In this document: positions 8,869 to 14,479 of the stretch, one piece after another
Layout of the letters: each line of letters starts with the position of its first letter
Numbering within the stretch: the stretch's first letter is position 1
IMG/VR virus record: IMGVR_UViG_3300046010_005063
Coordinates: 1-24,777 of that record
Origin: a virus
Reading direction: 5' to 3' (one strand)
DNA: 24,777 bases
The notes under the pieces: generated by a model
Told to the model about the DNA's origin: nothing
Database searches by the model: none
Seen by the model: only the letters and a program-made list of their open reading frames with translations
Made by a program: the position numbers and the translations under genes

Positions 8869-9096
8869 CTAGACCTCCATGCGTTGACGTACTGCAGCTG
8901 CTCTCCCAGCTGTCTGAATCCATGCAATCAACTCGTCGCCGCTGTACCACAGCCGATTGGCCAGCAGCACCGGCCGCAGCATTCCTGCTTGGCGACCTTC
9001 TTCTAAAGCCTTCACTGACAGGCCGACCGCCGCATTGATGCCGTCAGCCGTGTAAAGGCGTCGCTCGTCGATGTAGCCGTCTCGCCGCGTGTTCAC
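8869..9096 (-). CDS. Excisionase/MerR-like HTH protein
   Basis: A 75-aa protein beginning at GTG 9096 in a GTGA overlap with the zinc-finger gene. Residues about 13-60 follow the pattern of the small winged-helix HTH of excisionases and MerR-type domains: YTADGINAAVGLSVKALEEG (helix-turn-helix), then the wing with NRLWYSGDELIAWIQ. Proteins of this shape act as recombination directionality factors or as early regulators. As second gene of the leftward operon, opposite the integrase operon, it is the best excisionase candidate in the window, but a Cro/CII-type role is also possible. Confidence 0.7.
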   Translation of the reverse strand: MNTRRDGYIDERRLYTADGINAAVGLSVKALEEGRQAGMLRPVLLANRLWYSGDELIAWIQTAGRAAAVRQRMEV

Positions 9097-9341
9097 TTGG
9101 CAACTCCCAGAAACGGGTTGTCAGTCGTCAGGATTCGCACGTGTCCAGCGGCGAGAATGTTTTCCGCTGCAATTTGCGACTCCTCGAAATCGGCCTGCTG
9201 TTTCTTTGGAAGTGCCAGCATCGTTCGGCGGAACTGCATGTAGTGCTTGACGCACAATCCACGCTGATGCTCGGCGCTTTCACAGTGCAGACAGACGCCC
9301 GCCCGCACTCGCTCCTTCGTTGTTTCTTTGTTCTTTCCCAT
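9093..9341 (-). CDS. Zinc-finger protein heading the early operon (candidate switch regulator)
   Basis: An 82-aa protein with SD AGGGAG before ATG 9341. Residues about 17-33 form a metal site CLHC-x9-C-x2-H with the RGLC core (RGLCVKHYMQFRRTM), a knuckle seen in many phage DNA-binding and HNH-like proteins, here without any HNH nuclease domain. The protein aligns along about 50 residues with the divergently transcribed gene at 9522-9917: same C-L-x-C, QRGLC, K, Y, FR, M and L positions, then FE.....A..IL. It is the first gene after promoter 9387-9415, a position held by Cro in lambdoid phages. A transcription-regulator role is inferred. Confidence 0.7.
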   Translation of the reverse strand: MGKNKETTKERVRAGVCLHCESAEHQRGLCVKHYMQFRRTMLALPKKQQADFEESQIAAENILAAGHVRILTTDNPFLGVAK

Positions 9342-9375
9342 GTCTCCCTGCCTGCAGTTTGAATTGGACGTTTGT

Positions 9376-9401
9376 TCGACGTGGTGATATTATCGACGTG
9401 G
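9376..9401. promoter_or_regulatory. Candidate operator: direct repeat TCGACGTGG
   Basis: Two perfect 9-bp copies, at 9376-9384 and 9393-9401, 17 bp start to start. One covers the expected start point and the other lies inside the spacer of the leftward promoter, so a protein bound there would block it. A related TTGGACGT occurs at 9364-9371. Inference from position. Confidence 0.5.
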
Positions 9402-9415
9402 AAACCACATAGCAA
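9387..9415 (-). promoter_or_regulatory. Leftward early promoter, sigma70-like
   Basis: On the minus strand TTGCTA (9415-9410), 17-bp spacer, TAATAT (9392-9387). Transcription would start near 9380 and give a leader of about 40 nt before the zinc-finger gene. It is the best promoter match in the divergent region and overlaps the TCGACGTGG repeats. Confidence 0.6.
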
Positions 9416-9438
9416 GACTAGACTAACTCCAGACTAAC
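9415..9438. repeat. AGACTA(AC) direct repeats in the divergent control region
   Basis: AGACTA at 9415, AGACTAAC at 9420 and AGACTAAC at 9431; the last two are 11 bp apart, one helical turn. They lie immediately upstream of the leftward -35 box and of a TTGACA at 9446-9451 that could be a rightward -35 (no good -10 at normal spacing). Possible second operator family. Confidence 0.4.
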
Positions 9439-9472
9439 CATTTATTTGACACGTTTGGTCCGGCTTAATTAC

Positions 9473-9499
9473 GCAAGTCCTTGTCAGATACGGACTTGC
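9473..9499. promoter_or_regulatory. Inverted repeat GCAAGTCC-N11-GGACTTGC
   Basis: Perfect 8-bp arms (9473-9480 and 9492-9499), 19 bp centre to centre, about 23 bp before the rightward zinc-finger gene. The geometry suits a dimeric repressor; as RNA it would be a 5' leader hairpin. It has no following T-run, so it is not a standard terminator. Confidence 0.5.
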
Positions 9500-9521
9500 A
9501 ACGACAAAAAAACATGAAAAA

Positions 9522-9917
9522 ATGTTTTGCATGAACACAAAAACAAAAACTTGCTTGCAATGCAGTCAGCCCAGCAAGCAGCGTGGGCTTTGCCAGAAGT
9601 GCTACAGCCGCTTTCGCAATGCCATGCAGCGACTTGAACACGGAAAAAAGAAGCCTTTTGAACAGGCCTTGGTTGACGCTGGGCAGATTTTGCCGCCAGC
9701 CAAAAGAGAACCAGACAGCCACGACCCGTTTGGAGAACTGGCCGACCAGCTGCAGAATGCAGACGCAGATGAAGTCAGCGGAATCATCGAAGATTTCCGC
9801 AGCAAAAATAAAAAGTCGCAGAAACCAACTGTCCAGCAGGAAGCAGAGGACGTAGTTCGGAGGGCCAAGAAGGCCGCTAAACGAAAAGGCATCACGCCAA
9901 AAGACAAACCTACTTAG
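9522..9917 (+). CDS. Zinc-finger protein heading the integration operon (candidate repressor)
   Basis: A 131-aa protein. Residues about 11-27 form a CxxC-x9-CxxC site (CLQC, RGLCQKC) followed by YSRFRNAMQRL; it is a paralogue of the 82-aa protein encoded on the other side of the control region. The C-terminal 80 residues are extra: an acidic helix (about 70-92) and a very basic tail (RRAKKAAKRKGITPKDK), a plausible oligomerisation plus DNA-contact part. Neither ATG 9522 nor ATG 9531 has an SD, and ATG 9522 sits in an AT-rich hairpin (9509-9528), so the message may be leaderless or regulated. By position it corresponds to CI of lambda-type switches. Function inferred. Confidence 0.7.
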   Translation: MFCMNTKTKTCLQCSQPSKQRGLCQKCYSRFRNAMQRLEHGKKKPFEQALVDAGQILPPAKREPDSHDPFGELADQLQNADADEVSGIIEDFRSKNKKSQKPTVQQEAEDVVRRAKKAAKRKGITPKDKPT

Positions 9918-9929
9918 GAGGTTCCCGCC

Positions 9930-10208
9930 ATGAGTACAGCTCCCCAGCAATCACAAAAAACGCAAGGAAACAACACCGCCGATTTGCTAAACGACCTTGG
10001 CGAGGAAATGGCACACGTCAACCGGCAACTGAGAGTCGCGCTCGAATCTCTGCGAATGATGCAAGGGTTTATGGTTCTTACTTTCTTTGCGACCGCACTG
10101 CGAGCTGTTCCAGAAAAGTCTGGCTTGCTTGGCTTTGGTTTTGTCGTGATTTTGACCCTGTTATTGCTTGGCGTTATACAGTGGTTTGCTACTAAGCGAA
10201 TTAAGTAG
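9930..10208 (+). CDS. Small two-TM membrane protein
   Basis: A 92-aa protein with a strong SD (AGGAGG, eight bases before ATG 9930). The N-terminal 40 residues are polar and helical (LLNDLGEEMAHVNRQLRVAL). Two hydrophobic segments follow: about 46-60 (weaker) and 67-87 (FGFVVILTLLLLGVIQWF), ending in a basic TKRIK, so both ends probably face the cytoplasm. It sits between the zinc-finger gene and the integrase genes. A lysogeny-expressed exclusion protein is plausible. A holin is possible by topology, but no lysin is nearby and the operon context argues against it. Confidence 0.65.
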   Translation: MSTAPQQSQKTQGNNTADLLNDLGEEMAHVNRQLRVALESLRMMQGFMVLTFFATALRAVPEKSGLLGFGFVVILTLLLLGVIQWFATKRIK

Positions 10209-10333
10209 TGACCAAAGGTGTCGGCCGCCGTTACAAACTACCAGCCGACGGAATAGTGAACACTTGGCCACGGATGGCTCTTTCACCGAGGAAGGAGAAC
10301 CATCTGTGTTTGAACGGCTCGAGCATCTGCTAA
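10208..10333 (+). CDS. Possible 41-aa peptide
   Basis: GTG 10208 overlaps the TAG of the membrane-protein gene (TAGTG) and the frame runs to TAA 10333, overlapping the next gene by 28 bases. The product begins MTKGVGRRYKLPADG. The start-stop overlap matches the style of this operon, but there is no independent support and it may be only the leader that carries the SD of the next gene. Confidence 0.3.
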   Translation: MTKGVGRRYKLPADGIVNTWPRMALSPRKENHLCLNGSSIC

Positions 10334-10743
10334 TTGATTACCCCACGTCCACGCTCCTGCAAACGCAGTGGACCTTCAAGCGTCGCCGCCTGCAGGTGGT
10401 CGACGTGCGTGACCTTTACACCGACCCGCTGACGCCTGCGGAATACTTGCGGCGTCCGTTGATTCACCGTGGCCGGTATCTAGTAAAGGCAACCGACCTA
10501 GATTGCCAGCAAGTAAAGCAGTTCTACCTAGCCAGCTCGCAGGAGTTCTACCGGCCGACCGGTTTGCGGTTGGCCCTTTACTGGCCCGACACCATCGGCC
10601 AGCCACCTGAGCGAATCATCAGCAAACGGTTTGCTGCGCTGCGTCGTGATCGAATTGTCCTGGCGAAAGCCGTGACGCAGCTGCTCGAGACCGACTGGCA
10701 AGGCTTCCAGCTGCGAGTCACCGTCGACCGTAGGACCAGCTGA
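10306..10743 (+). CDS. Integrase-coupled protein of unknown function
   Basis: A 145-aa protein. GTG 10306 is chosen because AAGGAG lies nine bases upstream; longer readings in this frame have no SD and run back into the membrane-protein gene. It ends in TGATG with the integrase start, so both are made in fixed ratio. The sequence is rich in Arg, Leu and Tyr (WTFKRRRLQVVDVRDLY, about 23-39; a second conserved-looking block RGRYLVKATDLDCQQVKQFY about 56-75). No HTH or metal site is obvious. It could be an integrase accessory factor. Unknown family. Confidence 0.6.
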   Translation: MFERLEHLLIDYPTSTLLQTQWTFKRRRLQVVDVRDLYTDPLTPAEYLRRPLIHRGRYLVKATDLDCQQVKQFYLASSQEFYRPTGLRLALYWPDTIGQPPERIISKRFAALRRDRIVLAKAVTQLLETDWQGFQLRVTVDRRTS

Positions 10744-11885
10744 TGAAGCACAGCGTCAACGTCACCGTCCGCAAACGTCCTGACACTGGCTACTACCAGC
10801 TCCGCGCCATCAGTCCGCTGAACGGCAAAGAGCTGCGGCGTAGCGCCAAGACCACGCAGCTAAAGGAGGCACTGAAAGCTGCCGCTGCATGGGAGGCGGA
10901 ACTTGAGCAGGGCATTTACACGAGGCGGATGACATGGGAACAGCTTGCCGTTCGGTTCGCCGATGAATACTTGCCGAGGCTCAAGGCCAATTCTCGCTCA
11001 ACAATGCGGGCAACGCTGACGGCGTTCGGCAAGTTCGTCGAGCCGCAGGCTGGCATCTCGGCCATCACCGGCAGCACTATCAGCCAGTGGACCGCACGGC
11101 TTCGGCAAAGCGGCCTTCGAGAGTCGACGATTGCCCGCCACCTGCGATGCCTCAAGTGCGTTCTTAACTGGGCCGTCTCGACCGAACTAATGGCGCGGCG
11201 ACCGTCGATCACGATGCCAGCGGGCGGCAACAAGAAGCGGTTTCTGAAGGGCAGAGCACTGACCGAGGCAGACTTCTCGCTACTGTGCCAGACGGCAGAC
11301 CGCATCAACCCGACGTTCACGCCGCTGCTGAACCTGCTGTGGCTGTCCGGCCTGCGGATTAGCGAAGCCTACCGTCTGTCGTTCGACGCTGGCCCGAATC
11401 AGGTTGACCTGGCGAATCGGCGGTTTGTGTTCCTCGCCGCTGGCCAAAAGTCAGGCCACGACGAAACGATTCCGCTGCTGCCGGAGCTGTACGACTGGCT
11501 CGCATCGCTAGGACGCACCAGCGGCCCGGTCGTGCGTCCACTCGTCGGCGGCAAGCCTGTGACCCTCGACACGACCAAGCGTCAAATCAGTGCCATTGGT
11601 GCAGCGTCAGGACTCGTCACCGGCAGCGAAACAGGCAAGCACGTCACGGCTCACGACCTGCGGCGTTCGTTCGGCACACGCTGGGCACTGAAGGTCCATC
11701 CGCTGGTACTCAAGAAACTGATGCGTCACGAAACGCTGGACACGACGCTGCGGTTTTACGTCGACCTAGATGACAGTCAGATAGCCGACGCCATCGCCAA
11801 TTCACCGTACACGGGATCGTACATCTCGGCTGGCTCATTCAGTGATTCGCGGCAAACGAACCAGCGGAAAACACGGGTAAAATGA
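10743..11885 (+). CDS. int: Tyrosine recombinase, phage integrase
   Basis: A 380-aa protein. Residues 1-60 look like an arm-binding AP2-type domain (TVRKRPDTGYYQLRA), about 62-160 are the core-binding SAM-like domain (TWEQLAVRFADEYLPRLKA), and about 170-345 the catalytic domain. Visible catalytic residues are Arg205 (SGLRISEA), Lys236 (GQKSGHDE), His304 and Arg307 (HDLRRSFG), His329 (LMRHETLDTT) and nucleophile Tyr339 (LRFYVD). It catalyses site-specific integration between attP and a host attB. The attachment site candidate, a tRNA-Leu half, begins 34 bases past its stop. It is coupled to the upstream 145-aa gene by TGATG. Confidence 0.95.
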   Translation: MKHSVNVTVRKRPDTGYYQLRAISPLNGKELRRSAKTTQLKEALKAAAAWEAELEQGIYTRRMTWEQLAVRFADEYLPRLKANSRSTMRATLTAFGKFVEPQAGISAITGSTISQWTARLRQSGLRESTIARHLRCLKCVLNWAVSTELMARRPSITMPAGGNKKRFLKGRALTEADFSLLCQTADRINPTFTPLLNLLWLSGLRISEAYRLSFDAGPNQVDLANRRFVFLAAGQKSGHDETIPLLPELYDWLASLGRTSGPVVRPLVGGKPVTLDTTKRQISAIGAASGLVTGSETGKHVTAHDLRRSFGTRWALKVHPLVLKKLMRHETLDTTLRFYVDLDDSQIADAIANSPYTGSYISAGSFSDSRQTNQRKTRVK

Positions 11886-11886: not shown

Positions 11887-11918
11887 GAACTTCCGGCAGC
11901 GTTCCTGCTTGCTCAGAT

Positions 11919-11956
11919 TTTTAAGTCCTGAGCGTCTGCCATTCCGCCACTCGGCC
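11919..11956 (-). other. attP: attP candidate: 5' half of tRNA-Leu(UAA)
   Basis: On the minus strand the sequence starts with acceptor strand GGCCGAG, then TG, D-arm GCG-GAATGGCAGA-CGC, the 5' anticodon stem CAGGA and loop CTTAAAA (anticodon UAA), and then diverges: no matching anticodon 3' strand, long variable arm, T-arm or acceptor 3' strand follows. This is the 5' half of a tRNA-Leu gene, ending in the anticodon loop, a standard crossover point for tyrosine integrases. The breakpoint is framed by GCTCAG-N11-CTGAGC (11911-11933), which fits a pair of core-type integrase sites. The integrase gene is adjacent. Confidence 0.65.
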
Positions 11957-13484: not shown

Positions 13485-14479
13485 GTTTTGAACTGCGGGT
13501 CAAAAACTAGGTCGTCCCAATATCTTGTGTCTTGCGGATTCGTGCGCCAAACAAAGTGAGTTCCGCCCGACAGCGGAAGCCTTTTAGATACGAACAAATT
13601 TCCGTAATCGAAATAGGCGCAATTCAGGTATCGCCAATAGTCTGGCGTTGCCGTGCATTTAACCCAGCGGAAACCTCGGCTTGCCATGCTGGAAACTTCT
13701 TCTTGGTAAACGGTTGAGCCGTTTAGCTTTAGCTCAATAAAAACCTGCGGCGTGTCTGGATACGCAAACGGAGCTGACTTTATCTTCATAGCTAGCTCGT
13801 GAGTGCCCCACGGAATTTCAATCTCGTACAACGGCGTCACGTTTAGGCCGCTGGTAAATCCCGGTTTCCAGATGGTGTAGTACAGCCTAGGAGTTCCAAG
13901 GATTGGATACTCGCCCGCAAAGAACATCGCAGGCATCCGCAACTTAACCGCAACGCCATGCGTGATTACCTGCTGCAGCCCGAAGCTGGCGTCTTGGAAT
14001 CTTATCTTTGATTCGCCCATTCCAAAGTATTCGTTGCGTTCTGGCAGCAAAGGATTGGAACTTGTCCACAGATAAAACGGGGAGTATTCGCTTGGCGTTG
14101 TCACTTTTATTTTGTATTCGTAGTCACGCTCATTCAGTGCTATTTGATTTGCAAAAGAATTTTCTCGCAAAAAATGCAGCGAGTTCCAATCTCCGGTCGC
14201 AGCCCACCCCTGCCAACCGCTGGTGCTGTCGTAAAGGTCAAATCCATCTGTCGGAAAATGATAAGAACGGCCTTGCCGATACCATCTTGTTATGTCGGCG
14301 GTTGTTACTGGATTTTGAGTGAAGAAAAAATGCGAGCTAGGCAATCCGCTGCTGATGTCGTGGTCCCACGTGTAGTTGTTTCGCTGGAAGTATTCGGCGC
14401 AGTTGCACCCGTTGTAGTTTGGCGGGTCGTCGTTGCCGGGTTTTGTTTGGCAACATCCGCATCCAAGTTTGCCGACCAT
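13481..14479 (-). CDS. Large virion-associated protein, possible tail fibre/receptor-binding
   Basis: A 332-aa protein with AGGTGA before ATG 14479. It opens with a Cys cluster (LGCGCCQTKPG ... NGCNCAEYF, residues 4-29) and is then very rich in Trp, Tyr, Phe, Asn and Ser, predicted beta. This composition is typical of carbohydrate-binding jelly-roll folds, so a receptor-binding or tail-tip role is plausible; no catalytic motif is seen. It lies at the end of the tail module. Its base composition is clearly AT-richer than neighbours, as is common for exchanged host-range genes. Family not recognised. Confidence 0.7.
   Translation of the reverse strand: MVGKLGCGCCQTKPGNDDPPNYNGCNCAEYFQRNNYTWDHDISSGLPSSHFFFTQNPVTTADITRWYRQGRSYHFPTDGFDLYDSTSGWQGWAATGDWNSLHFLRENSFANQIALNERDYEYKIKVTTPSEYSPFYLWTSSNPLLPERNEYFGMGESKIRFQDASFGLQQVITHGVAVKLRMPAMFFAGEYPILGTPRLYYTIWKPGFTSGLNVTPLYEIEIPWGTHELAMKIKSAPFAYPDTPQVFIELKLNGSTVYQEEVSSMASRGFRWVKCTATPDYWRYLNCAYFDYGNLFVSKRLPLSGGTHFVWRTNPQDTRYWDDLVFDPQFKT

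Follow-up and report, generated by a model that had tools for sequence, protein, structure and literature searches.

How does a temperate phage choose between lysis and lysogeny when the two genes that face each other across its control region both encode small zinc-finger proteins? To our knowledge, the phage switches studied so far rely almost without exception on repressors of the helix-turn-helix type. In the stretch of DNA analysed here (a virus record of 24,777 bp, called the window below) the first gene of the early operon and the first gene of the integration operon are of this kind, and the first-pass annotation had proposed them as a switch occupying the place of CI and Cro.

Two divergent zinc-finger genes and their relatives

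Both open reading frames described in that annotation were located. The early gene, ZnEarly (9093..9341, minus strand), encodes 82 aa with a CLHC-x9-CxxH motif followed by two helices. The integration-side gene, ZnLate (9531..9917, plus strand), encodes CLQC-x9-CxxC, two helices, an acidic stretch and a basic tail. Its open reading frame begins at 9522, and this had given a protein of 131 aa and a gap of 180 bp. The ATG at 9522 is absent in the relative G001 and that at 9531 is conserved, so we set the start at 9531; the protein is then of 128 aa and the gap of ~189 bp.

Relatives were collected by IMG/VR searches with both zinc proteins, the 75-aa product of the second early gene, the integrase and the conserved protein p145 as queries. 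These were G001 (3300049043_000026, 41.5 kb), G002 (3300046007_005088), G003 (3300007735_000267), G004 (3300036770_004178), G005 (3300048839_000711, truncated at p145) and G006 (3300010052_000201). Five phages have the divergent pair placed between the integrase and the early genes: the window and four other IMG/VR phages (G001, G002, G003 and G006), two of which are very distant (distant pairs share 27-38% identity). ZnEarly is kept in six phages and ZnLate in five. Zinc and winged-helix alignments were run in two scans against 84,980 species genomes of bacteria and archaea, and no relative came up. Among named phages ZnLate had no match and ZnEarly matched only hypothetical or HNH-like knuckles of Gordonia and Streptomyces phages (E 0.1-0.7); the gene block holding these matches lacks the divergent pair. 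A literature search for zinc-type immunity repressors gave no match.

The suggested kinship of the two proteins was borne out. BLASTP aligned them with E 6e-11 (33% identity over 70 aa), and comparison of the early-group and late-group profiles with hhalign gave a probability of 99.2 and E 5.4e-20 over 65 columns. The likeness extends beyond the zinc motif into a helix with FE..L..G.IL, and for the post-motif part alone 52 of 20,000 shuffles scored as high. By these comparisons ZnEarly and ZnLate are true homologues. The tree of the family has long branches and does not separate early from late proteins, so a single ancient duplication behind the early/late split cannot be claimed.

All 10 aligned members keep the four Cys/His ligands, with either C or H in fourth place, and both proteins are expected to bind zinc. 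The difference in the fourth ligand, to which a role-specific meaning had been attached, is real in the window, G001 and G002 (His early, Cys late); both ligands are His in G003 and the order is reversed in G006 (Cys early, His late), which rules out the ligand as a marker of role. The C-terminal extension, in agreement with the first-pass annotation, is confined to the integration-side protein in all five pairs. In the model of the 82-aa protein (pLDDT 76) short strands surround the knuckle and a helix begins at the second ligand pair, a predicted geometry like that of treble-clef zinc modules. A fold search with the zinc protein model found no significant match among solved structures, and neither zinc protein matched any DNA-binding family at the curated cut-off.

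Purifying selection acts on ZnEarly (dN/dS 0.17-0.25) and on the zinc part of ZnLate (0.07-0.21), beside which the C-terminal tail of ZnLate (9738-9914) evolves fast (0.45-0.51). The ZnLate gene of G001 carries a 1-nt insertion relative to the window, leaving the conserved C-terminal tail out of frame (L006, about 9275-9290); this may be a real mutation or an assembly error. G001 has the facing pair and no third member of the zinc family, an extra match being the detached tail of its ZnLate gene.

The control region

The control region between the divergent genes (9342..9530) was aligned with those of G001 and G002. Its most conserved block (9365..9398) is identical to G001 at 32 of 34 positions, against 37 of 76 in the middle of the region (binomial P ~6e-7 for the block at 55% neutral identity). 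Within the block lies a plus-strand promoter-like sequence, TGGACG-N17-TATTAT, with a TG before the second hexamer (0.1 expected), and a minus-strand -10-like TAATAT overlaps it. Read from the sequence, a possible -35 for the early operon, TTGCTA (9410..9415, minus strand; TTGTTA in G001), stands 17 nt upstream of TAATAT; the resulting TTGCTA-N17-TAATAT is the weaker of the two sites, with 8 of 12 consensus bases. We infer promoter roles for both sites; if they are real, they overlap and would therefore be mutually exclusive.

The same block contains GACGT direct repeats 11 bp apart (9367 and 9378). GACGT-N6-GACGT occurs in the window only at 9367 and once, at the same place, in both G001 and G002; it is absent in G003. 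Excisionase sites in phage 186 have a like 11-bp spacing (PMC7498355). A further block (9473-9503), with 25 of 31 positions identical between the window and G001, holds an inverted repeat, GCAAGTCC-N11-GGACTTGC (9473..9499), which lies upstream of ZnLate and is unique in the window. It is identical in G002; its outer 6 bp are kept in G001 and GGACTTGC-n-AC is kept in G003. An RNA hairpin at this repeat was considered and dropped (z -1.3 for a 106-nt stretch, not significant). No operator common to all the phages was found.

The integration operon and exchange of the cassette

ZnLate is followed in the integration operon by a gene for a 92-aa protein with two apparent membrane helices, as read from the sequence (9930..10208, plus strand); G003, G004 and G006 have membrane-protein genes of other sequence at its place. 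The next gene, p145 (10306..10743, plus strand, GTG start), is conserved, stands directly before the gene for the tyrosine integrase (10743..11885, plus strand) and has no family match in Pfam or NCBIfam. Right after int, 45 bp (11912..11956) are identical in G001 and G002 and are flanked on both sides by CGTACA repeats; this is probably the attP core. Its minus strand reads like what we take to be the 5' half of a tRNA-Leu(UAA) gene.

On the other side, the second early gene (8869..9096, minus strand) shares 4 bp with the end of ZnEarly and encodes a predicted winged-helix protein of 75 aa. Its model (pLDDT 77) has the order helix-helix-strand-strand-helix, and its weak fold matches include MerR proteins and two excisionases, TorI and 2kvv. 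Two sequence matches can serve as leads only: the best PDB sequence-profile match, RdfS (E 0.37), and excisionase PHROG_539 (E 0.1). RdfS is a winged-helix directionality factor (PMC11963761). No curated excisionase or HTH_17 model matched the 75-aa protein.

The backbones of G001 and G003 are collinear, with 73-85% DNA identity on both sides of the cassette. The alignment breaks behind the phosphoesterase gene, at G003 position 10,757, and is picked up again in the last bases of ZnEarly, at 13,734. The non-aligning ~3.0 kb comprise attP and int, p145, the membrane-protein gene, ZnLate, the control region and ZnEarly. Within this stretch the ZnEarly proteins are 34% and the integrases 37% identical. 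The adjoining winged-helix gene is not part of the exchanged cassette; its identity is 95% at the protein level and 94% at the DNA level. Because the two phages differ over the whole stretch and are then 94% identical, ZnEarly, as judged from this alignment, moves in one block with ZnLate, the control region and int. Divergence also shifts at the ZnEarly/winged-helix junction between the window and G002 (dS 0.37 vs. 0.07) and between the window and G001 (0.68 vs. 1.20). The 75-aa protein does not track integrase specificity, since it is unchanged when int is exchanged, and it is unlikely to be the dedicated partner of one integrase. In lambdoid immunity regions exchange takes the first lytic gene along with the lysogeny gene and the intervening DNA; cro travels with cI. 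The exchange between G001 and G003, one clear recombination event, is the best evidence we have pointing to a switch.

In G004, ZnEarly and the winged-helix gene are present and the integration-side gene lacks the zinc ligands; as this gene does not encode a zinc protein, two zinc paralogues do not appear to be always needed. A conserved tail that by eye seemed common to ZnLate and this gene gave BLASTP E 0.002 and profile E 0.08 and is not claimed. The integration operon of G006 encodes a Bro-N-type protein (L029, 1796-2644, minus strand), a weak match (E 7e-4) below the curated cut-off. The Bro-N family is known from phage antirepressors.

Candidate regulators and comparison with known systems

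One tail gene of G001 is continuous across the ends of the record, from last base to first, so that this record probably represents a complete genome, circularly permuted. Searches with HTH_3 and S24 profiles gave nothing above the cut-off in six records, and the control genomes were positive. No known repressor family was among the Pfam matches listed (25 of 31 families) for the 54 proteins of G001. This apparently complete phage thus seems to have no recognisable CI-type repressor, near int or elsewhere. The first-pass annotation had seen no helix-turn-helix repressor of the usual kind near int; this stands for HTH_3 and S24 proteins and has to be qualified by the predicted winged-helix protein encoded by the second early gene. 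In G001 some proteins match terminase gpA nuclease, Hint/intein and LAGLIDADG profiles, which suggests an intein in one of its genes.

The explanation that we favour, at about even odds, is that ZnEarly and ZnLate are paralogous specificity regulators in an immunity-and-integration cassette of temperate phages. The homology of the two proteins, their divergent layout in five phages, the lack of a canonical repressor, the cassette exchange, the conserved control-region block with its promoter-like site and the treble-clef-like model of the 82-aa protein speak for such a switch; it has lost the meaning once given to the metal ligands, and is weakened by the winged-helix candidate in the early operon, which could be the real regulator, and by the integration-side gene of G004. 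Against it also stand the negative searches for a DNA-binding family, a matching solved structure and an operator common to all the phages, the tree that leaves early and late proteins unseparated, and the single recombination event behind the clean cassette boundary. A stricter version, in which lysis and lysogeny are run by two diverged zinc-finger copies in place of helix-turn-helix CI and Cro, from overlapping divergent promoters, and heteroimmune variants arise by exchange of the zinc pair and int, is somewhat less probable. In the favoured explanation ZnLate, the first gene of the integration operon, would be the lysogeny-side repressor, binding the shared control region, silencing the leftward early promoter and tuning its own. 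ZnEarly, which opens the lytic operon, would play the part of Cro: by means of the zinc fold common to both proteins it would contend for the sites that ZnLate binds or for others close by, or else combine with ZnLate, and it would turn off the rightward promoter of int. Overlap of the two promoters within the conserved block at 9365-9415 is probable, and therefore only one polymerase would be accommodated at a time.

The same cassette could be laid out on the Cox/Apl model. In P2 and 186 the repressor gene lies in the int operon and the excisionase in the lytic operon, a plan that the present gene order resembles. The 75-aa winged-helix protein would then be an excisionase that represses the int-operon promoter from the GACGT repeats, which lie one helix turn apart, with ZnLate as the immunity repressor and ZnEarly as an accessory protein or an antirepressor pairing with its paralogue. 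The winged-helix model, its weak matches to TorI, 2kvv and MerR proteins, the RdfS and PHROG_539 leads and the placing of the repeat in the window, G001 and G002 fit this arrangement. We nevertheless hold it to be unlikely: the winged-helix gene matches no curated family and stays 95% identical between G001 and G003 despite integrases of 37% identity, and the GACGT repeat is missing from G003, whose 75-aa protein is nearly the same. Exchange together with int would also suit a ZnEarly that acts as a recombination directionality factor, and as a transcription regulator besides, matched to integrase and attachment site, with ZnLate modulating int expression. Such factors are small, basic and very diverse. 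However, we know of no zinc-finger directionality factor for a tyrosine integrase, and no repeats common to attP and the control region were seen; this explanation appears very improbable.

Improbable too, if less so, is the idea that the two proteins are relics of HNH-nuclease zinc modules, or related to them, and serve an unrelated purpose, such as counter-defence or RNA binding, their position being incidental. The best family likeness of the 82-aa protein is indeed to the N-terminal knuckle of an HNH endonuclease, PHROG_5351 (E 2e-4), which 7 of 10 members match (best 3.6e-5). Yet the HNH catalytic part is missing, purifying selection is evident, the divergent position is kept in five phages and the genes are exchanged with the control region. 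We give hardly any credence to a scheme in which the actual repressor is p145, or a different, so far unrecognised product of the integration operon, and the zinc proteins only assist. In the phages with both genes in sequence, p145 is kept next to int whatever the integrase type, and no family is known for it; but it shows no sign of a DNA-binding motif and does not adjoin the control region.

If the zinc pair does form the switch, the divergent-pair logic of CI and Cro has been reached with another fold, lysogeny control could be recognised in uncultured phages that seem to have no repressor, and synthetic switches would gain a compact new pair of parts. G001 and G003, with the same backbone and different cassettes, are predicted to belong to two immunity groups.

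Several known systems share parts of this arrangement. The N-terminal zinc module of phage HNH endonucleases (PHROG_5351) has the same C-x2-C-x9-C-x2-H/C knuckle with RGLC. The proteins described here differ in standing alone, in a divergent pair and without an HNH nuclease domain: neither gave an HNH Pfam match, and both are too short after the knuckle. Small zinc-binding regulators are encoded by other phages, among them P2 Ogr, P4 Delta and Mu Com. These and TraR/DksA have other cysteine spacing and are not known as a CI/Cro-like pair; the zinc proteins had no Pfam match to Ogr/Delta or TraR/DksA up to E 1. TraR and lambda Orf73 are further small phage zinc-binding regulators (PMC9239242).

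As in P2 and 186, where C or CI goes with int and Cox or Apl with the lytic genes, a candidate repressor gene comes first in the int operon and a gene for a predicted winged-helix, excisionase-like protein lies early in the lytic operon. The promoters of P2 and 186 face each other, whereas those proposed here diverge; in addition, a zinc protein is encoded ahead of the Cox-like gene, which is not exchanged with int. With the cI-OR-cro region of lambda the locus shares two divergent candidate regulators of common descent flanking one control region. As in lambda, the whole passes from phage to phage in one piece, the opening gene of the lytic operon included, here seen in one event between G001 and G003. 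It differs from lambda in having zinc-finger proteins instead of helix-turn-helix repressors, with no S24 cleavage domain and with presumed binding to the control region, and in placing int in the operon of the repressor-side gene.
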